Below are positions 3,991-48,907 of a DNA stretch of 64,000 bases, piece after piece. The DNA comes from Sulfurimonas hongkongensis (GTDB lineage Bacteria; Campylobacterota; Campylobacteria; Campylobacterales; Sulfurimonadaceae). The stretch covers positions 62,001-126,000 of the forward strand of contig NZ_AUPZ01000002.1 of the NCBI RefSeq assembly GCF_000445475.1, in the 5' to 3' direction. The notes under the pieces are model-generated. The model was not told where the DNA came from, did no database searches, and worked only from the letters and a program-made list of their open reading frames with translations. The first letter of the stretch is position 1; each line of letters begins with the position of its first letter. The position numbers were made by a program, and so were the translations under genes.

Positions 3991-4941
3991 TTATTTTACT
4001 AGTTTAGCTAGTTTAGCCTGAAGTTTCAACCACAATCTATGTTCCATCAAAGGAAAACCAGCAAATGTCAAGCCGCTCTCTTTGATGCTTTTTGTAACCC
4101 CACTTCTTGCGGCCATAGTTGTAAATGCTGCAATCTCAAGATGCCCAGCTATTGCACTTTGTCCGCCCATTACAACATTTCTACCCATCTTAGTAGATCC
4201 TGCAATACCAGCTTGTGAGACTAAAACGCTATACTCACCTATCTCGCAGTTGTGACCGACTTGAACAAGGTTGTCAATCCTAACGCCTTTTTTTATAAGA
4301 GTAGTTCCAAAAGCAGCCCTATCTATCGCAGTAGAACTTCCAATTTCAACACTATCTTCTATAACTACATTTCCATTTTGATATATCTTTTTATGCTCAC
4401 CTAGCTTTGAAGTAGCAAAACCAAAACCATCACTTCCTATGGTTGTATTTGCATGTATAATACAATCACTTCCAACTTTACAATCTCTATAGATACAAAC
4501 ACTTGGATGAAGAGTAGTATTATCACCTATGGTAACATTTGCACCTATATATACATGAGCCATAATAGTACAGTTCTCACCAATAGTAGCACCTTTTGCT
4601 ATTTCAGCTTTAGGCGATACTTTACTACCCTCGCCTATCTTTGGCTCTGGAAGTGTTTCATCTTCTATACTAGGAGCAAAATACTTTGAAAGTTTTGCCA
4701 TCTCCCAATAAGGAGATTCTACTACCAAAGCTATAGAGTTCTCTGGTACAAACTCTTTTGTGTTAGCATCAACTATTATAGCCCTCGCTTTTGAGTCTTT
4801 TATATCATTTATATACTTTGAGTTTGACACAAAAGAGAGTTCTGTTTTTGAGGCAGATTTGAGAGTGTTTATGCCTGTAATTTCAAAGTCTTCTTGGTTA
4901 AAATCAACTCCAATGATGGTAGCTATTTCTGATATCTTCAT
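3991..4941 (-). CDS. lpxD: UDP-3-O-acylglucosamine N-acyltransferase
   Basis: Third enzyme of lipid A synthesis: adds the second 3-hydroxyacyl chain, from acyl-ACP, to UDP-3-O-acylglucosamine. The 316-residue protein has the LpxD N-terminal uridine-binding domain (about 1-95), then a long run of hexapeptide repeats from about residue 100 to 255, and a C-terminal helix. The catalytic histidine lies in VQVGHNCEIG. Length fits Campylobacterota LpxD, slightly shorter than the 341-residue E. coli protein. It sits 44 bases downstream of ilvN on the same strand. Coupling of lipid A and branched-chain amino acid genes has no obvious functional reason and probably reflects shared housekeeping expression. 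Confidence 0.93.
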   Translation of the reverse strand: MKISEIATIIGVDFNQEDFEITGINTLKSASKTELSFVSNSKYINDIKDSKARAIIVDANTKEFVPENSIALVVESPYWEMAKLSKYFAPSIEDETLPEPKIGEGSKVSPKAEIAKGATIGENCTIMAHVYIGANVTIGDNTTLHPSVCIYRDCKVGSDCIIHANTTIGSDGFGFATSKLGEHKKIYQNGNVVIEDSVEIGSSTAIDRAAFGTTLIKKGVRIDNLVQVGHNCEIGEYSVLVSQAGIAGSTKMGRNVVMGGQSAIAGHLEIAAFTTMAARSGVTKSIKESGLTFAGFPLMEHRLWLKLQAKLAKLVK

Positions 4942-4985
4942 CTATATCCTTTTAGGCAATATACTACCTTACTAAAGATCATCTA

Positions 4986-5462
4986 CTATCTCTCAAGTGC
5001 AACAGCACCGCTTCTTACTATCTCTTTAGGATTATATCTTTTTATCATCTTTAAGAAGTTATCTACTCTTTTTGGATCATCTGCTATCATTGCAATAAAG
5101 ATATTTTCTCCAACATTTACAATATTACCGTTATAAGCCTGACACAAAGCAGTTATATCGCTAATACTTTCAGTTATAGGAAACTTTATAAGAGCCATCT
5201 CTTTTTCAACCAAATCAGCATGCTCATAAACCTTTAAAACAGGAACTAGCTTGTGAAGCTGCTTAGTAATCTGCTCTATAACTCTAACTGAGCCAGAAGT
5301 TACTATAGTTAGTCTTGAGTATTTGCTCTCAGGAATCGGAGCTACTGTTAGTGAAGTGATGTTATACCCGCGACCAGAAAAAAGATCTGTGATACGAGAT
5401 AAAACACTCGCTTCATTGACAACGATAACTGAAACTACTCTTCTTTCACTATTTTCAGTCAT
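4986..5462 (-). CDS. ilvN: Acetolactate synthase small subunit
   Basis: Regulatory subunit of acetohydroxyacid synthase. The 158-residue protein has an N-terminal ACT domain (VSVIVVNEASVLSRITDLFS, then GRGYNITSLTV) that in this family binds valine for feedback inhibition, and a C-terminal ALS_ss_C domain of about 80 residues. The ATG at 5462 overlaps the ilvB stop by one base (TAATG), so translation is likely coupled and the two subunits are made in step. Confidence 0.93.
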   Translation of the reverse strand: MTENSERRVVSVIVVNEASVLSRITDLFSGRGYNITSLTVAPIPESKYSRLTIVTSGSVRVIEQITKQLHKLVPVLKVYEHADLVEKEMALIKFPITESISDITALCQAYNGNIVNVGENIFIAMIADDPKRVDNFLKMIKRYNPKEIVRSGAVALER

Positions 5463-7156
5463 TATTTCTCCTTTCTCTCTAATAACATCATGTTAAAGAG
5501 GCTTCCACCTGATGGGACCATCGGCATAACATTCTCTAACCTCTCAACTACAACATCGATAAAAGCAACGATGTTCTTCTCTATCGCATCCTTTAGTGCT
5601 GCATCAAACTCCTCTTTTGTTGTAACTCTATAACCTACCCCACCAAAAGCCTCTGCTAAGAGGACAAAATCAGGCTGAACGCTTAGGTCTGTTTCACTAT
5701 GCCTTTTATCATAAAATAGTGTCTGCCATTGTCGAACCATTCCTAGATAGTTGTTATTTAGGATGATGTTTATAACTGGAAGCTTTTGCTCAACCGCAGT
5801 CATTAACTCTTGGCAGTTCATAAGGATAGAGCCATCTCCAGTAAAGTTTATACTAATTTTATCAGGAGATGCAGCTTTAACGCCCATTGCAGCTGGAAAA
5901 CCAAAGCCCATAGTTCCAAGTCCACCAGAACTTATAAACTGTCTAGGACGACTAAAAGGGTAAAACTGTGCAGTCCACATCTGATGCTGACCAACATCTG
6001 TTGAAATATTTGCATCATCTCCCAGTAACTCGCCTACTCTCTCTACAACCCATTGTGGTTTTATTCTATCTGTGTCTTCATGATAGACAAGAGGATGAAG
6101 TTCGGCAAAGTTTGCTACAGTCTCTCTCCACGGCTCATATTTATTAGAGTTGATGGATGTAGAGAGTTCAAGCATCTCTTTTACAACATTTTTAACATCT
6201 CCAACTATTGGGTAGTCAGCATTTACAAGTTTTGAGATAGATGCAGGATCTATATCAACATGGATAACACTTGCATTTTTTGCAAATTCAGATAGCTTAC
6301 CAGTTACACGGTCATCAAATCTCGCCCCTAGACCTATAACTAAGTCAGTCTCACTCATTGCCATATTTGATGCGTAAGAACCATGCATTCCAAGCATTCC
6401 AACTAAGAGTTTATCATCATGAGATAAAACACCTCTAGCCATAAATGTCTCAACAGCAGGTATCCCAGTCTTCTTTATAAGCTCTCTTACTTCGTAACCA
6501 GCATTTGCATTTATTACCCCACCACCAATATAAAATAGTGGTCTTTTTGCTTTAGCAATTGCCGCTATCGCTTTTTTGATTTGACGAGGATTACCTTTGA
6601 CATTTGGTTTATAAGTCTCAAGACCAAGCTCTATAGAATAATCAAACTCTGCAATCTCAGCGGTCACATCTTTTGGAATATCTACGTGAACAGGACCAGG
6701 ACGACCAGATGCTGCAATATGAAACGCTTCTTTTAAAACACGAGGTAGATCACTTGCATTTGTTACAAGGTAGTTGTGTTTAGTACATGAACGACTTATA
6801 CCAACTGCATCTATCTCTTGAAATGCGTCAGTGCCGATAAGACTCATAGGAACTTGCCCACTTATAACAACTAATGGAATAGAATCCATATAAGCATCAG
6901 CTAAACCAGTCACAGCATTTGTAAAACCAGGACCACTCGTAATCATAGCTACACCGACTTTTCCACTCGCTTTTGAGTAGCCCTCAGCAGCATGAACTGC
7001 TGCTTGTTCGTGTCTTGTCAAAATATGTTTAAAATTGTCTTGTTTATAAATCTCGTCGTAAACATTCATAATCGCTCCACCAGGGTAGCCAAAAACTGTG
7101 TCTACACCCTCTGCGATTAATGCTTCAATGACCATTTGTGCGCCACTAATCTGCAT
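5462..7156 (-). CDS. ilvB: Acetolactate synthase large subunit
   Basis: Catalytic, thiamine-diphosphate and FAD dependent subunit that condenses two pyruvates to acetolactate, or pyruvate with 2-oxobutyrate on the isoleucine route. The 564-residue protein shows the TPP glutamate segment FGYPGGAIMNVYDE with the following RHEQAAVHAAEGY, the central domain (LVIGLGARFDDRVTGK), and the TPP/Mg motif NFTGDGSILMNCQEL followed by NNNYLGMVRQWQ. Length is normal. It starts the operon ilvB-ilvN-lpxD-small gene. RBS AAGGAG lies before the ATG. With ilvA close by on the same strand, this covers the first two steps towards isoleucine. Confidence 0.95.
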   Translation of the reverse strand: MQISGAQMVIEALIAEGVDTVFGYPGGAIMNVYDEIYKQDNFKHILTRHEQAAVHAAEGYSKASGKVGVAMITSGPGFTNAVTGLADAYMDSIPLVVISGQVPMSLIGTDAFQEIDAVGISRSCTKHNYLVTNASDLPRVLKEAFHIAASGRPGPVHVDIPKDVTAEIAEFDYSIELGLETYKPNVKGNPRQIKKAIAAIAKAKRPLFYIGGGVINANAGYEVRELIKKTGIPAVETFMARGVLSHDDKLLVGMLGMHGSYASNMAMSETDLVIGLGARFDDRVTGKLSEFAKNASVIHVDIDPASISKLVNADYPIVGDVKNVVKEMLELSTSINSNKYEPWRETVANFAELHPLVYHEDTDRIKPQWVVERVGELLGDDANISTDVGQHQMWTAQFYPFSRPRQFISSGGLGTMGFGFPAAMGVKAASPDKISINFTGDGSILMNCQELMTAVEQKLPVINIILNNNYLGMVRQWQTLFYDKRHSETDLSVQPDFVLLAEAFGGVGYRVTTKEEFDAALKDAIEKNIVAFIDVVVERLENVMPMVPSGGSLFNMMLLERKEK

Positions 7157-7244: not shown

Positions 7245-9371
7245 TTAATCTAAGATGGAGTTTACAATCATAGAAGTTCGCCACATACTCTTAGAGCCTT
7301 TAGTTTGGAGTTTTAGGTTAAGTTTTGTTTGCGGATAATTGTCTTTAAAGATATTAAAAAGAGACTCTATTTGGTCTTGAAGTCCAAAGTATAAAATATA
7401 GTTTTTTATACCCTTCTCTATAGTAGCTTGATCTCTTCTTTCTTCTATGGCCTTTTCAAGCTCAACCATATAACACCAACCATAGATGCCTGCAAGTGCT
7501 GAGCTTTTGGAGCTTACCTTTATATACTTTTCTAAAACTCTATTTAACCCTTTTATATTTGCATCTAGTGCAAACTCATTTGCAGTTGCTACTGCATCGT
7601 TATACTCTTTTTGAAGTTTTTTAGCATCTTGCGTGTTTTGTAGGTCTTCATTTAGAGCTAATATATTGTAGGCAGTAGTCATATCATCTTCTTTTATAGC
7701 TGCGTAAAACTTATGTCTGCACTCTATGCTTTTCATAAGCTTCTTTGCATCTAGAGAAAAGTCAGTAAAATCCACTAAAATTCTTAACATCTTGATAGCT
7801 TCATGGGTATTGTCTTGCTGGAGAAATTTTTGGCTCTTTATATAGAGTGAATCCCCGTAATTTATAAGTGCGCTATAGTCTGGGAGCTCTTTTAAAAATG
7901 AGTTTAGTTTTATAAGCTCAAATGCTACTTTAAAATCTTTTTGTCCTATAGCTATACGAAAGCGTTTATAAACTTCACTCTTTGCAAGTAGATCTTGGAT
8001 AAACTTCGTTTTTTGCGTCACACCCCTGTATGGAGCTAAAATTTCACGAGCCAACTCTGCACCATTTGGATCTATGGCATATCTTTTAGCCTCAGAAAAT
8101 GTTTTTTTCCAGTTTAGCTCAAGCGTCTTATATAGTTGAGAATCTTGGTAGTGAGGATGCTTTAGAGCTAAAGCATAGGCAAGGGGAAATTTTGACTCTT
8201 GTGCAAATTTTGCAAATTTATCAAACTCTTGATACTCTGAGATAATGGCTTTAATAGCAGAGTTTCTAGCTGGTATCTTTTGAAAATTCCCAAAAAGTGC
8301 AAGAGCCTTTTTTTTATCATTTTTCTCTAACGCCAACCTTGCTTTTTTTACCGTTGTATTCCAAATGGAGATAACAATTTGATAGGCTTTTGTGTAGGCT
8401 AGGAGTGGATTTTTTTCTACAATTTCTTGGATTTTTTTATAATTTTTTATCTTCAATAGCTTAGTTATACGTTCCTGTGATTCAAATATATCATAAATAA
8501 GTAGATTAGAATTCTCAGTTGCAACAATGAGCTGTGAAGTTTTTCCATCAAACTCAAGAGCTGTTATAGTAGATGATAATTTTATATATTTTCTTGACAA
8601 TATCTTGTAACTCTCAAGTTCGTAAACTATAACATAGCCTAACTCGGTTCCCAAAAAAAGAAAGACTCCATCTTGACTTGATGTTATACTCGATATGTCA
8701 TCATGAACACCTTCAAGCCTCTGAATAATTTTCCCTTTTTCATAATCCCAAACTATAGCAGTGTTTGCCTTATCTATACTAAAGAGTCTATTTTCGCTCA
8801 AGAAATGAACTTGTAAAACTGCTTCTTTATGTCCTATAAGTTTGCATTTTTTTGTCATAGTTATCATATTAAAAAGATAGATTTTTTTATCATAGCTCGC
8901 AGTTGCAGCCCACTGAGCATTTTTACTAAAGGCTAAATCATTGATGGCATCAGAATGGATGGGAAGTGTAAAAGCTACTCTTTTATTTATAATATCTATG
9001 GCGTATGATTTTCCATCATCACCACAACTAAACATATACTTAGAACTTGGATCTATTGCCACACAGTTAACTTCACCGCTATGCCTATCCATCTTTGCAA
9101 TAGCTCTTTTGCTCTTTGCATTATAAAGAAGCGACTCTTTTTTAGTAGAGCTTATAAGCGTAAAATATAAACCATTACCACTAAAGTCAAAGACTTGTCT
9201 CTTAAAACTACTATATTCTATAGCGCACTTAAACCCAGAGAGAGTTCTTAAACTCATAAGATCTAAAAATCTAATTACACTCTTGGCATCTACAACTAAG
9301 AGTTTGCCATCATCCATAAGTTTAACTCTTATGATGGCATCTTTTAGGCTTACTTCTTTTGTTGGCTTCAT
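7245..9371 (-). CDS. WD40-type beta-propeller with C-terminal helical repeats
   Basis: A 708-residue protein of unknown role. Residues 1 to about 297 look like a beta-propeller of WD40-like blades; visible blade patterns include HSGEVNCVAIDPSSKYMFSC, HSDAINDLAFSKNAQWAATA and GHKEAVLQVHF with NTAIVWDYEKG. Residues about 300-708 are almost wholly helical and TPR-like. No signal peptide or membrane segment is present, so it should be cytoplasmic. It starts one base after the ilvA stop and is probably cotranscribed with ilvA. It has a paralog at 46811-48907 with the same 297-residue propeller length; the best shared block is residues 404-550, with LAPY..VTQK and GQKDFKVAFEL matching LSPY..IPQK and KKQDFKTYFRL. 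A scaffold role is a guess. Confidence 0.85.
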   Translation of the reverse strand: MKPTKEVSLKDAIIRVKLMDDGKLLVVDAKSVIRFLDLMSLRTLSGFKCAIEYSSFKRQVFDFSGNGLYFTLISSTKKESLLYNAKSKRAIAKMDRHSGEVNCVAIDPSSKYMFSCGDDGKSYAIDIINKRVAFTLPIHSDAINDLAFSKNAQWAATASYDKKIYLFNMITMTKKCKLIGHKEAVLQVHFLSENRLFSIDKANTAIVWDYEKGKIIQRLEGVHDDISSITSSQDGVFLFLGTELGYVIVYELESYKILSRKYIKLSSTITALEFDGKTSQLIVATENSNLLIYDIFESQERITKLLKIKNYKKIQEIVEKNPLLAYTKAYQIVISIWNTTVKKARLALEKNDKKKALALFGNFQKIPARNSAIKAIISEYQEFDKFAKFAQESKFPLAYALALKHPHYQDSQLYKTLELNWKKTFSEAKRYAIDPNGAELAREILAPYRGVTQKTKFIQDLLAKSEVYKRFRIAIGQKDFKVAFELIKLNSFLKELPDYSALINYGDSLYIKSQKFLQQDNTHEAIKMLRILVDFTDFSLDAKKLMKSIECRHKFYAAIKEDDMTTAYNILALNEDLQNTQDAKKLQKEYNDAVATANEFALDANIKGLNRVLEKYIKVSSKSSALAGIYGWCYMVELEKAIEERRDQATIEKGIKNYILYFGLQDQIESLFNIFKDNYPQTKLNLKLQTKGSKSMWRTSMIVNSILD

Positions 9372-45804: not shown

Positions 45805-45868
45805 AATTGAACCTTCTGATTAATTTATAAACTAGATTCCGTGTCAAGCACGGAATGACGGGACACGC
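45805..45868. repeat. Copy 2 of a 64-bp dispersed intergenic repeat
   Basis: 55 of 64 positions match 24882-24945. This copy contains a perfect stem: attccgtg at 45836-45843, loop tcaag, and cacggaat at 45849-45856. The 'attccgtgtcaagcacggaat' core resembles palindromic elements found scattered in intergenic DNA of many bacteria. The copy keeps its pairing, so it may be younger or under constraint. Confidence 0.75.
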
Positions 45869-45922
45869 GTCATCCTGAACAAACAAACCGTCATCCTGAA
45901 CAAACAAACCGTCATACTGAAC
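45868..45922 (+). repeat. 21-base tandem repeat
   Basis: The unit cgtcatcctgaacaaacaaac occurs exactly at 45868-45888 and 45889-45909. A third, partial unit (cgtcatactgaac) begins at 45910 and runs into cttgattcaggatct, which pairs as ctgaa...ttcag. The full form, 'gtcatcctgaacttgattcaggatct', is a common type of intergenic palindrome; here its left half has been duplicated. Confidence 0.8.
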
Positions 45923-45995
45923 TTGATTCAGGATCTACCTTAATAATTATTCAGAGCACTCAATTAAAAAAAGATAAAGACTTCAAAGGTTAAAT

Positions 45996-46829
45996 ATGAG
46001 CAAGGATACCAAACAAAGCGCCGATTTGGCAAAAGAGTTACACCAAACAAATAAGATTCTTAAAGAGTATAAAAAGGCTGTTGATGAGTCAACAATCTTC
46101 TCTATTGGTGATTTAAGCGGGAAAATAACTTATGCAAATAAACAATTTAGAAGTATCTCTGGCTATACGCTAGAAGAACTTATAGGAAAGCCTCACTCTA
46201 TAGTCCGTGATCCAAACACTCCAAAAGAGATATTTGAAGATATGTGGCAAACTATACAAAATAAAAAAGTATGGAGAGGAACTCTAAGTAACCGCAAAAA
46301 AAATGGTGAGATCTACTATGTAGATGCGACTATAGTCCCCATCCTTGATGAAAATGATGAGATTGTTGAGTATGCAGGAATACGAAGCGACATCACACTT
46401 TTAGTAAATAAAGAGAAGGAACTCCTAGAATTAAGAGATAAACAGAGATTTGAAGATGTTGATAAAGCACTAAAAATTACCAACTCAAACATTTTAGCAT
46501 CTATACCAATTGCATCTATCCTTGTATGTGAAAGATCTCATAAAATCATAGGGTTCAATGAGTGTTTTGAATCTATGTTTTTTGAGAGTTCATTTTTACA
46601 AAAAGAGCCTAAAATAGGCGAACTTTTACTAAAAAATGAAGATGATGCCATCTATGAAGATGAGCAGATTAGTTTTGTTCAAAGATATGAATTATTAACT
46701 CCAGATTGTAAAGCCTACATAGATGTTAATGGCGAAAAAGTTGAGTTTTTGATGGGTGTAAAAAAACTTAGCGAAGCTTTTATTGTCTCTTTTGCTGCTA
46801 AGGGATATGCATGCAAAACTACCATATAA
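45996..46829 (+). CDS. Tandem PAS-domain sensor without output domain
   Basis: A 277-residue cytoplasmic protein. PAS 1 (about 30-145) is an Aer-like redox PAS: IFSIGDLSGKITYANKQF, ISGYTLEELIGKPHSIVRDPN, then WRGTLSNRKKNGEIYYVDAT and YAGIRSDIT. A linker coil follows and a second, weaker PAS (about 165-275, IASILVCERSHKIIGFNECF). There is no kinase, GGDEF or methyl-accepting domain, so it must signal through a partner. The gene ends 19 bases inside the next gene, a propeller/helical-repeat protein, which suggests that the two proteins work together. AAAGG precedes the ATG. Confidence 0.85.
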   Translation: MSKDTKQSADLAKELHQTNKILKEYKKAVDESTIFSIGDLSGKITYANKQFRSISGYTLEELIGKPHSIVRDPNTPKEIFEDMWQTIQNKKVWRGTLSNRKKNGEIYYVDATIVPILDENDEIVEYAGIRSDITLLVNKEKELLELRDKQRFEDVDKALKITNSNILASIPIASILVCERSHKIIGFNECFESMFFESSFLQKEPKIGELLLKNEDDAIYEDEQISFVQRYELLTPDCKAYIDVNGEKVEFLMGVKKLSEAFIVSFAAKGYACKTTI

Positions 46830-48907
46830 AAAACCATTTTACACTTGAGAATCCAATCGTAGAAGTAAAACTACAAGAAGACAATATCTCTTTTGTAGAT
46901 TCTCAAAATGTTTTATATATCTTTGATAAAAAATTCAAATTGTCCTTAAAAATGAAGCTAGACAAAAGTAATGATACCAGACATATGTTTTGCAATGAGT
47001 TTAATATCTCTAAAAACAGTATCTCTGTGCCCTTGAAAAAAAATCTCATCTCAACTCTCTATAATGAAGGGAAGATAAAGGCCACATTTAAAAGTACTAT
47101 CCATCAAAGTAATATAAACTTCACCCGTTATTCTAAAGATGCTAAATATCTACTAAGTGCTAGTCTAGATGGAAAGGTTTTTATACACGACTTAGAGACA
47201 AAAACCATAAGATATAGTTATAAAAACAGACCAGATTACTGTTCATATGCTACTTTTTCACACAAAAACAAACTTGTTTTTGTGTCATACTTTAATCGTA
47301 CTAATACTCTACTAAACCTACAAGATGACACTCTTGTAGAGTTTAATACTAACGACCCTATAGAACTTGCGATTTTTTTTGATGAAGATAGAAAACTCTT
47401 TTTAGCAAATAGAGAGGGTTATAGTATTATTTATGACTGCATAGAAAAAGAGATTATAAGTCAAAAAGTTCTTTTTACTCACTGGCCAACTAGTGCAACT
47501 CTCTCACAAAACAGAAAAAACATAGTAATTGGCACTAGAACAAACAAGCTTTACATAATAGACCCTTTTAAAAATGAGCTTATAAATAGCATGGATTTTG
47601 AAGATAGTGCAGTCGCAAATGTTGATATAAAAAACAATGACTTACTTATAGGCTTTACAAATGGAAATCTATCTTTAATAGACTTAAGCTACAAAAAAGA
47701 GCAGTTTCTTCATCATGTAAATCTAAAAGAGTATGACAAAGCCAAGGAGATACTAGATAGTAACTGCTTTTTATATCTTGATGATGCTATAGATAAATTC
47801 AAAAAGAGTTTTGATGAAGTTTTAGTAAAAGCAAAAGAACTTATTACCAAAAAGTTTGTTGATGAAGCTATAAAGCTAGTAGATCCTTTTATGCAATATA
47901 AAGAGTTCAAAACAAAGATAGATGCACTTCTTATACAACAAGACCATATAGCCCACTTTATAGAAGCAGTTGAAAAAAAAGAAATACAAAATGCTTACTT
48001 TTTTGCTCAAAAATACCCAATAATAGAGTCCCTCCACTACTATACTTTACTAGAAAACCGCTGGGAAAAAATTTATGCCGAAGCTAGAAGTGCATTAGAA
48101 GAAGATCCTCTTAGAGGTGTACATAAAGCAAAAAATATCTTAAGTCCTTATGAGAAAATCCCACAAAAGAGTGAACTTATAAAGTTTCTTCTAAACAATA
48201 GTGTAATGTTGAGTAGAGCTGATGCAGCGGTGAAAAAGCAGGACTTTAAAACATATTTTAGACTTGTAGAAGAGTTTGATTTTTTAAAACAAACCAGACT
48301 CTTTAAAAAGATACAAGACTTAGCAGTATCCATAAAGAACAAAGCTACACAACTTTATGCAGATGGAGAATATAAAGCGGCACAAAACACTTTTAGAACT
48401 ATTTTAGACTTTCAAGAGTATAAACAATTTGCGCTCAATGAGATAGAAAAAATAGACCATATATTAAGATTTCAATTTGCGATAGAGAAGGGAAATAAGA
48501 AGCTAATATACTCTTTTGCTAACAAATATAATTTTTTAAGTTTTACACCAGAATTTGAGGGCTTCAATGAAGAGTTTGATAAACATATAAACAAAGCTCT
48601 AAAGGTCACAAAATATGGAGATGTTAAAAAAGCCAGATATATACTAAATGACTACATAGGAATAAAAGAGCTAGAGAAAAAGATAGATAACTGCATTAAG
48701 ATTGGCTATCTTAAGCAGTTCGAAAATACAGATGCAAGCCCAAAAGAACAAGATTTATTTTTAAAGAGATATAACTTTTTATTTGGAATTGATAACCTCT
48801 TAGAAGCATCAATGATAAAAAAATCTCTATCTGCCCTTTTTAAAGAGTTCTGTGAGGACCCATCAACTCTTGAAGTAAAACGCTATCCAGACTCCTTGCA
48901 TCTTTAG
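46811..48907 (+). CDS. WD40-like propeller with helical repeats, paralog of the 7.2-9.4 kb gene
   Basis: A 698-residue cytoplasmic protein of unknown role. Residues 1 to about 297 look like a beta-propeller with poorly conserved WD-like blades (YSKDAKYLLSASLDGKVFIH is the clearest). Residues 300-698 are helical. The region 401-540 aligns with 404-550 of the protein at 7245-9371: YTLLENRWEKIYAEARSALE with LYKTLELNWKKTFSEAKRYA, then LSPY, PQK, KKQDFK and ILDF at matching spacing. It overlaps the PAS gene by 19 bases and so is translationally linked to it. The pairing of a redox-type PAS protein with a propeller/solenoid protein suggests a signalling scaffold, which is an inference. Confidence 0.85.
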   Translation: MQNYHIKNHFTLENPIVEVKLQEDNISFVDSQNVLYIFDKKFKLSLKMKLDKSNDTRHMFCNEFNISKNSISVPLKKNLISTLYNEGKIKATFKSTIHQSNINFTRYSKDAKYLLSASLDGKVFIHDLETKTIRYSYKNRPDYCSYATFSHKNKLVFVSYFNRTNTLLNLQDDTLVEFNTNDPIELAIFFDEDRKLFLANREGYSIIYDCIEKEIISQKVLFTHWPTSATLSQNRKNIVIGTRTNKLYIIDPFKNELINSMDFEDSAVANVDIKNNDLLIGFTNGNLSLIDLSYKKEQFLHHVNLKEYDKAKEILDSNCFLYLDDAIDKFKKSFDEVLVKAKELITKKFVDEAIKLVDPFMQYKEFKTKIDALLIQQDHIAHFIEAVEKKEIQNAYFFAQKYPIIESLHYYTLLENRWEKIYAEARSALEEDPLRGVHKAKNILSPYEKIPQKSELIKFLLNNSVMLSRADAAVKKQDFKTYFRLVEEFDFLKQTRLFKKIQDLAVSIKNKATQLYADGEYKAAQNTFRTILDFQEYKQFALNEIEKIDHILRFQFAIEKGNKKLIYSFANKYNFLSFTPEFEGFNEEFDKHINKALKVTKYGDVKKARYILNDYIGIKELEKKIDNCIKIGYLKQFENTDASPKEQDLFLKRYNFLFGIDNLLEASMIKKSLSALFKEFCEDPSTLEVKRYPDSLHL

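Follow-up and report, generated by a model that had tools for sequence, protein, structure and literature searches.

Introduction

Many bacterial sensor proteins have no output domain of the enzymatic or DNA-binding kind, and what they act on is often unknown. The question of such a target is raised by a gene pair of Sulfurimonas hongkongensis (Campylobacterota). The pair lies in a stretch of 64,000 nucleotides (assembly GCF_000445475.1, contig NZ_AUPZ01000002.1, positions 62,001 to 126,000), called the window here. The upstream gene encodes P0003, a protein with a PAS domain and a C-terminal domain that we call CD. The downstream gene overlaps it and encodes P0001, a protein with a predicted propeller followed by a helical solenoid (Table 1). 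What does P0003 act on? We consider it rather probable that the pair is a bipartite signalling unit, in which modular sensors dock through CD on a propeller–solenoid scaffold. One class of output-less sensors thus gains a testable target, defined by CD.

An earlier note, made from the letters of the window, had joined the pair with a second propeller–solenoid protein of the window, P0002, in one signal-to-scaffold module. That interpretation is right in kind and wrong in pairing the two paralogs.

The sensor protein P0003

P0003 matches the Pfam family PAS_9 (3.3e-19). The closest solved structures to its PAS domain are 3ewk (2.9e-33; listed as 'sensor protein'), the aerotaxis receptor 8dik (7e-27) and the nitrogen fixation regulatory protein 2gj3 (4e-22), and 31cj is also matched. 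We take 3ewk to be MmoS, and 3ewk, 8dik and 2gj3 (NifL) to be PAS domains with flavin adenine dinucleotide (FAD). Judged by sequence, the P0003 domain belongs to the FAD-type PAS domains of Aer, NifL and MmoS and would bind FAD; since it is closest to these domains, redox sensing is the likely input. FAD binding by the PAS domains of Aer and NifL is described in the accessible part of PMC3558505.

The NCBIfam nifL model matches residues 25–197 of P0003 (2.4e-30, 105.5 bits, under the cut-off of 242). NifL and P0003 both have a first PAS domain related to 2gj3. According to the accessible part of PMC3558505, the second PAS domain of NifL is without cofactor and serves dimerization. Kinase-like and ATPase regions follow in NifL, whereas P0003 ends at CD.

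The earlier note had described a tandem PAS protein lacking any output domain. The first half (residues about 24–140) is indeed a recognizable PAS domain. CD, with a size of ~125 residues, matches no Pfam family at E <= 0.01, its best match among solved structures has E 0.093, and hhalign gives no alignment with the first PAS domain (probability 0.8%, E 0.07). In alignment A3, CD carries the pattern IPxPxxxID...N..F, which resembles a divergent PAS domain, and a second PAS domain is plausible by this motif. The 277-residue protein terminates after CD, and no HATPase match is present in it. P0003 is better described as a sensor whose conserved CD is the probable contact than as a protein without output.

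PAS domains like that of P0003 give 17 matches at E <= 1e-10 in the genome of the window alone. The six best matches of P0003 in other genomes (G008, G056, two in G059 and two in G040; G and L numbers are our handles for genomes and loci) have E 1.5e-72 to 8.3e-50, and all of them stand before propeller genes. The feature common to these six proteins beyond PAS is the C-terminal CD (alignment A3). The constant partner of the propeller is CD, not the widespread PAS domain.

The part before CD is a PAS domain alone in the window, G408, G293 and G059. It consists of a receiver and a PAS domain in G055, G192, G228, G213 and G180, and also in G008, where the receiver is under the Pfam cut-off. A receiver without PAS is found in G246 and in a second protein of G342, and a receiver-like domain under the cut-off, again without PAS, in G006. 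In G056, G342, G418 and G424, the PAS domain is preceded by a long N-terminal region that contains hydrophobic segments as well as a CxxCH motif. These CxxCH-type proteins have 510–521 residues (L118:3062-4591, L120:2897-4429, L115:6609-8144, L052:4363-5925). One of them shows a weak Tll0287-like match (E 0.0036, under the cut-off). From their sequences, they are perhaps haem-binding membrane sensors.

Linkage of CD and the propeller gene

According to sequence comparison, P0001 belongs to a propeller–solenoid family of the Campylobacterota that is homologous in both halves. The family is present in 51 of 60 relatives (E <= 0.001) and in 93 of 298 Campylobacterota genomes (profile matches at E <= 1e-20); the latter search scored no more than three candidates in each genome, and its copy numbers are lower bounds. 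A tree of 103 family proteins has two sides, 53 rows including P0001 (clade A) and 50 rows including P0002. The rows are loci chosen among the family matches, not all matches, and L101, a duplicate of L112, was omitted. A genus search with P0001 itself supplied ten of the loci and is biased towards the P0001 subclade. The tree was built quickly, with SH-aLRT support alone; several forks of clade A are open in it, and long branches are flagged.

The search with CD in the 298 genomes gave 19 matches at E <= 1e-14. By their coordinates, 17 of the 19 end directly upstream of a propeller gene. The match in G040 is located one gene further upstream in the same operon, as the upstream member of a tandem pair. 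In G336, the match is within 140 bases of a contig end, and a different contig carries the propeller ortholog from its base 2 onward. The propeller matches of G246 and G262 are partial; G246 was confirmed at the locus (gap of 1 base), and G262 was placed by extrapolation. Twelve of the 19 matches were outside the profile alignment, although one of the twelve (G252) scores identically to G055, which was inside. Seven weaker matches range from 7e-12 to 3.3e-8, and one of them belongs to the G336 operon.

The search in 135 genomes of the genus gave ten matches at E <= 1e-14, seven of which were in the search alignment. Eight directly precede a propeller gene, another stands two genes behind one (G342), and the last is at a contig end (G336). 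Two further matches of ~3e-12 (G424) both run to contig ends. In the genus g20, CD is present in all ten genomes with a propeller match, and three g20 genomes that lack such a match (G156, G170, G307) do not appear among the CD carriers. Across the phylum and genus genomes, every high-scoring CD is in a propeller operon or at a contig end. The coupling of sensor and propeller that the earlier note expected across genomes is thus kept when the sensor is defined by CD, and it withstands the refuting condition set in that note.

In 17 loci, the CD and propeller genes are separated by -25 to +25 bases. The overlap of exactly 19 bases in the window, as noted earlier, is repeated in a relative with an 86%-identical propeller gene (JAQUFE010000007.1, a metagenome-assembled genome of Sulfurimonas sp.); the same identity is found in the same-genus genome G408. 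The 17 CD–propeller loci of the tree form ten groups with no flanking gene in common at E <= 1e-10, a comparison that is thin at contig ends (two genes for L042). The linkage is not mere synteny; it is close and position-independent. The distances of the CD and propeller proteins are correlated (Mantel r 0.91 for 17 pairs and 0.53 for 11 divergent pairs; p 0.0002), as expected for co-inheritance.

Signalling genes around the propeller genes

A same-strand gene for a receiver, a PAS protein, a methyl-accepting chemotaxis protein (MCP) or CD is next to the propeller gene at 24 of 53 clade A loci and at 0 of 50 loci on the other side (Fisher p 5e-9, uncorrected for relatedness). Loci at contig ends with a missing neighbour were counted as negative. 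Without the ten loci from the P0001 search, the count for clade A becomes 16 of 43 by arithmetic. Within three genes of the propeller, signalling genes are found at 26 of 53 and 3 of 50 loci, respectively. At a distance of more than three genes, signalling kinds make up 14 of 354 genes.

In G336 (51% ortholog), the order is a PAS protein of 162 residues, an MCP of 480 residues with CZB, a CD protein of 124 residues, a PAS+CD protein of 251 residues and the contig end. The 124-residue gene (L151:4926-5300) encodes CD almost alone and overlaps the end of the MCP gene. On another contig of G336, the propeller gene is followed by genes for a receiver protein of 345 residues and an MCP of 633 residues. 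The order in G222 is similar, with a receiver protein of 355 residues and an MCP of 752 residues after the propeller. In G031, a PAS protein of 162 residues, an MCP of 482 residues, the propeller, a receiver protein of 340 residues, an unnamed protein of 259 residues, a kinase-like protein of 393 residues and a receiver-GGDEF-EAL protein follow each other. In G056, a CheB gene is located two genes upstream of the PAS+CD gene. For some relatives, these gene orders suggest a connection with taxis or phosphorelay systems.

The neighbourhoods of G336, G031, G222 and G056 would also suit a chemoreceptor-array accessory. The propeller would then connect chemoreceptors or receivers with the redox input of a CetB-like PAS protein, as a CetAB-like energy-taxis device with an extra scaffold. 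The PAS domain of P0003 is close to those of aerotaxis receptors, while the term 'CetB-like' refers to the gene layout. In CetA–CetB of Campylobacter jejuni, for which the accessible part of PMC3558505 reports direct interaction, a soluble redox-type PAS protein likewise has its own gene beside that of its signalling partner. The partner there, however, is a chemoreceptor instead of a propeller–solenoid protein, and P0003 adds a C-terminal domain. No MCP gene was detected in the whole window by a profile scan, and neither an MCP nor a receiver gene is beside the window pair; a chemoreceptor gene beside the PAS gene would mark a pair of the CetAB type, and in G336 and G031 PAS and MCP genes do overlap. 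No MCP is present within the five-gene surroundings of the other 16 CD–propeller tree loci. The C-terminal domain of the 340-residue receiver proteins is not specific for the propeller either, as four of its eight matches below E 1e-39 adjoin a propeller gene. We regard the array accessory as unlikely, though worth keeping in mind.

That domain (alignment A6) had been tried as a second partner family and was rejected on the same count; three of the four adjoining matches were in the search alignment. It is shared by the receiver proteins of 339–355 residues directly behind propeller genes (L078:3816-4835, L113:2129-3163, L136:6246-7310, L148:6517-7533), has no Pfam name, and has relatives elsewhere.

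The accD–gltD junction

The window pair sits between accD and gltD. The pair is absent from G407, where the two genes are adjacent with about 150 bases between them, and from G425, where the spacing is about 590 bases and no open reading frame (ORF) of 40 residues is wholly inside. In G345, the junction is occupied by other genes (L167:3092-6547). One of these (4116-5510) ends, by eye, in a GGDEF-like domain. The junction may be a site of turnover. Since it is empty or filled differently in relatives, the pair was gained or lost as a unit.

Such gain or loss would be expected from an operon of convenience, in which sensor and propeller are co-expressed but act apart, and their linkage reflects the co-transfer of a two-gene cassette. 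Against this, differing sensor inputs keep CD beside the propeller in ten neighbourhoods, and no CD match at E <= 1e-14 is clearly apart from a propeller in the 298 genomes. The operon of convenience is improbable in our judgement. Docking of the sensor on the propeller protein remains the preferred reading.

Predicted structure of P0001

The AlphaFold model of P0001 (m9e197fb0334c), built on the 60-row family alignment A1, is confident (pLDDT 91.5, pTM 0.84). It has 28 strands within residues 6–291, and helices alone from 296 to 679. The model places the end of the propeller near residue 292, in good agreement with the length of about 297 residues estimated before. Superposition on WDR61 (3ow8_A) with VIA-align gives Z 29.8 and a root-mean-square deviation (r.m.s.d.) of 2.6 for 281 residues. 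According to the model, the N-terminal half is a standard seven-bladed WD40 propeller. The Pfam models of WD40-type propellers match P0001 at best with 1.1e-10, every one under its own cut-off. The WD40 scaffolds G-beta and WDR61 have a seven-bladed propeller as in P0001, and RACK1 is also a seven-bladed WD40 scaffold. Unlike P0001, these three have neither an attached solenoid nor a bacterial sensor partner.

The helical half consists of four tandem units with a period of ~83 residues, as detected by profile comparison of slices. All six pairwise hhalign comparisons of the units give E 1.5e-21 to 1.3e-13, whereas 12 control comparisons with propeller slices give E 0.11 to 0.73. Modelled alone, the solenoid shows pLDDT 93.7 and pTM 0.68. 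Among solved structures, Foldseek finds nothing similar to it at E <= 0.001; the best match is an IFT-A chain (0.038). Its best VIA-align match (Z 9.4, r.m.s.d. 7.8, 112 residues aligned) falls short of the background given for helical models, and absence of a family from the VIA-align results does not exclude it. Only local matches to TPR-like hairpins are observed. No Pfam family is consistent in the solenoid half across 97 family members, with TPR_14 in two and TPR_6 in one (E <= 0.01). TPR proteins have helical hairpin repeats of 34 residues; the period in P0001 is ~83 residues. We take the helical half to be a TPR-like but distinct repeat.

An N-terminal beta-propeller with C-terminal helical repeats is described for eukaryotic membrane coats and for proteins of the Planctomycetes–Verrucomicrobia–Chlamydiae (PVC) bacteria in the accessible part of PMC2799638. 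P0001 resembles these proteins in its modelled domain order, propeller first and an all-helical C-terminal half. It differs in its phylum, in its ~83-residue repeats and in the coupling to a sensor. It has about 700 residues, while the accessible part of the same paper gives 1,039–1,287 residues for three Gemmata proteins. In the whole-chain Foldseek search, the IFT-A chain 9a2d_C is the top match (E 6.9e-16, TM 0.31 to the query), but its r.m.s.d. is 62, and the plain propeller G-beta scores little below it (3.5e-15). Because the similarity of the solenoid is not significant and the IFT-A matches of the whole chain barely beat plain propellers, P0001 is not filed as a coat protein. It is very improbable, despite the same domain order and the top rank of the IFT-A chain, that P0001 is a membrane-coat-like protein as in COPI, IFT and the PVC bacteria, which would shape or tether membranes under redox control.

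The paralog P0002

P0001 and P0002 are aligned by BLASTP over 673 positions, nearly the full length, with E 1e-32, 22% identity and 44% positives. The paralogy proposed earlier holds, and the homology extends beyond the helical block at residues 401–540 that was noted then. A search of the window's own genome with P0001 gives P0001 and P0002 alone at E <= 1. The two proteins are on different sides of the tree, and they are therefore old paralogs, not a recent pair. One module of both paralogs is contradicted by their different clades and by the complete lack of adjacent same-strand signalling genes on the side with the ilvA-linked copy.

Among the 50 rows of the P0002 side, 31 are linked to ilvA/ilvB, 10 to fliI/recJ and 4 to polA, and 5 are others. 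A functional meaning of the linkage to ilvA was rejected. The position of the ilvA-linked gene is conserved in the genus, but those of other clades are conserved as well. Stable neighbours of other family clades include, by eye, fliI/recJ, ispG, a polysaccharide deacetylase gene, polA and an ftsY-like gene. The ilvA link of P0002 is only a conserved position, not a pathway.

For some copies of the family, the matches include single stops. Their reading as pseudogenes was rejected; in four that were reread, the match overruns the terminal stop by a few codons. The propeller gene has no tblastn match in 72,556 plasmid records. An all-bacteria scan with short peptide patterns of one protein, which detects close relatives only, found one locus.

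Three other loci show unusual arrangements. In G006, a second ilvA copy (L053:3892-5088) is directly upstream of the CD–propeller pair, and this genome also has the usual ilvA–propeller–ilvB locus (L061). In G043, a gene of the Tle1-like phospholipase family (PF09994, 1.8e-72; L087:3914-4903) is directly downstream of a propeller-family gene. In G056, two propeller-family genes are in tandem with 31 bases between them (L049:4936-9232).

Proposed mechanism

P0003 would sense the redox state through its Aer/NifL-type PAS domain, as its homology suggests. Since CetB binds the separate receptor CetA, we propose by analogy that P0003 docks on the product of the neighbouring gene, with CD as the contact to the propeller–solenoid protein. 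A signal-driven change in the PAS domain, or in the receiver or CxxCH-motif sensor of relatives, would pass via CD to the scaffold. The propeller and the helical arm may hold further proteins, which in some relatives are probably chemotaxis or phosphorelay parts.

Several findings weigh against such a mechanism. No same-strand signalling gene adjoins the propeller gene at 29 of 53 clade A loci. CD is not directly upstream at 36 of the 53, some of which are in stable housekeeping positions; CD is thus not a general requirement of the scaffold. Within the genus, the unit is rare, with strong CD matches in 9 of 135 genomes. In the 298 genomes, the six weaker CD matches outside the G336 operon adjoin no propeller among the matches listed. 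Weak CD matches (E above about 1e-12) include long sensor proteins away from propellers; those in the genus were judged mostly to be such proteins by open-frame length. CD is therefore probably a divergent member of a common superfamily. The Mantel correlation follows equally from shared ancestry alone.

A wider proposal is that receivers, redox PAS domains and CxxCH sensors share CD as an adaptor that switches a coat/IFT-like propeller–solenoid scaffold. This would be a signal-controlled coat-like scaffold outside the PVC group and a new class of bacterial signalling output. We consider this proposal speculative and rather doubtful.

The value of the pair lies in a domain-defined sensor–scaffold unit with tight linkage and a confident structural model. 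The accessible part of a 2010 survey (PMC2799638) reports the propeller-then-solenoid layout outside eukaryotes from PVC bacteria only. The layout is now placed in Campylobacterota, with old paralogs in one genome. The two-gene unit suggests that these bacteria have a route of signal transfer that has gone unnoticed. No description of a sensor–propeller unit was found by a keyword search of the literature without most subscription journals. In this search, WD40 was co-mentioned with neither Sulfurimonas nor Sulfurospirillum, whereas co-mentions with Campylobacterota (PMC10988111) and Arcobacter exist. The accessible part of PMC5587647 has no occurrence of epsilon, Sulfurimonas or Campylobacter. 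PMC4519771, by its accessible part, concerns an unrelated PAS regulator and was set aside.

Features of the window

Table 1. Positions of the sensor–propeller pair, its domains and the paralog in the window
Feature	Position	Strand	Basis
Sensor partner gene P0003, 277 residues: Aer/NifL-type PAS (by homology) and C-terminal domain CD	45996..46829	+	ORF, Pfam, structure matches
PAS domain, P0003 residues 24–140	46065..46415	+	Profile and structure matches
C-terminal domain CD, P0003 residues 141–277	46416..46826	+	Alignment A3, genome searches
Ribosome-binding-like AAGGGA within the PAS gene, 5 bases ahead of the ATG of the propeller gene	46800..46805	+	Direct sequence reading
19-base overlap of the PAS and propeller reading frames	46811..46829	+	ORF coordinates
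Propeller–solenoid protein P0001, 698 residues	46811..48907	+	ORF, homologue searches, AlphaFold model
Predicted seven-bladed WD40 propeller, residues 1–292	46811..47686	+	AlphaFold model, fold comparison to WDR61
Solenoid repeat unit 1, residues 296–376	47696..47938	+	hhalign of units and models
Solenoid repeat unit 2, residues 377–463	47939..48199	+	hhalign of units
Solenoid repeat unit 3, residues 464–547	48200..48451	+	hhalign of units
Solenoid repeat unit 4, residues 548–640	48452..48730	+	hhalign of units
Ancient paralog P0002, 708 residues, flanked by ilvA and ilvB; in the other clade and without a sensor partner	7245..9371	-	ORF, BLASTP, tree

The stretch 45805-45968, shortly before the PAS gene, is one copy of a dispersed repeat of some 160 bases. 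The same genome has further copies (99% and 96%), G408 contains two (90% and 85%), and incomplete copies occur in other Sulfurimonas genomes. Inside the dispersed repeat, a 21-base tandem repeat is found at 45868-45909.

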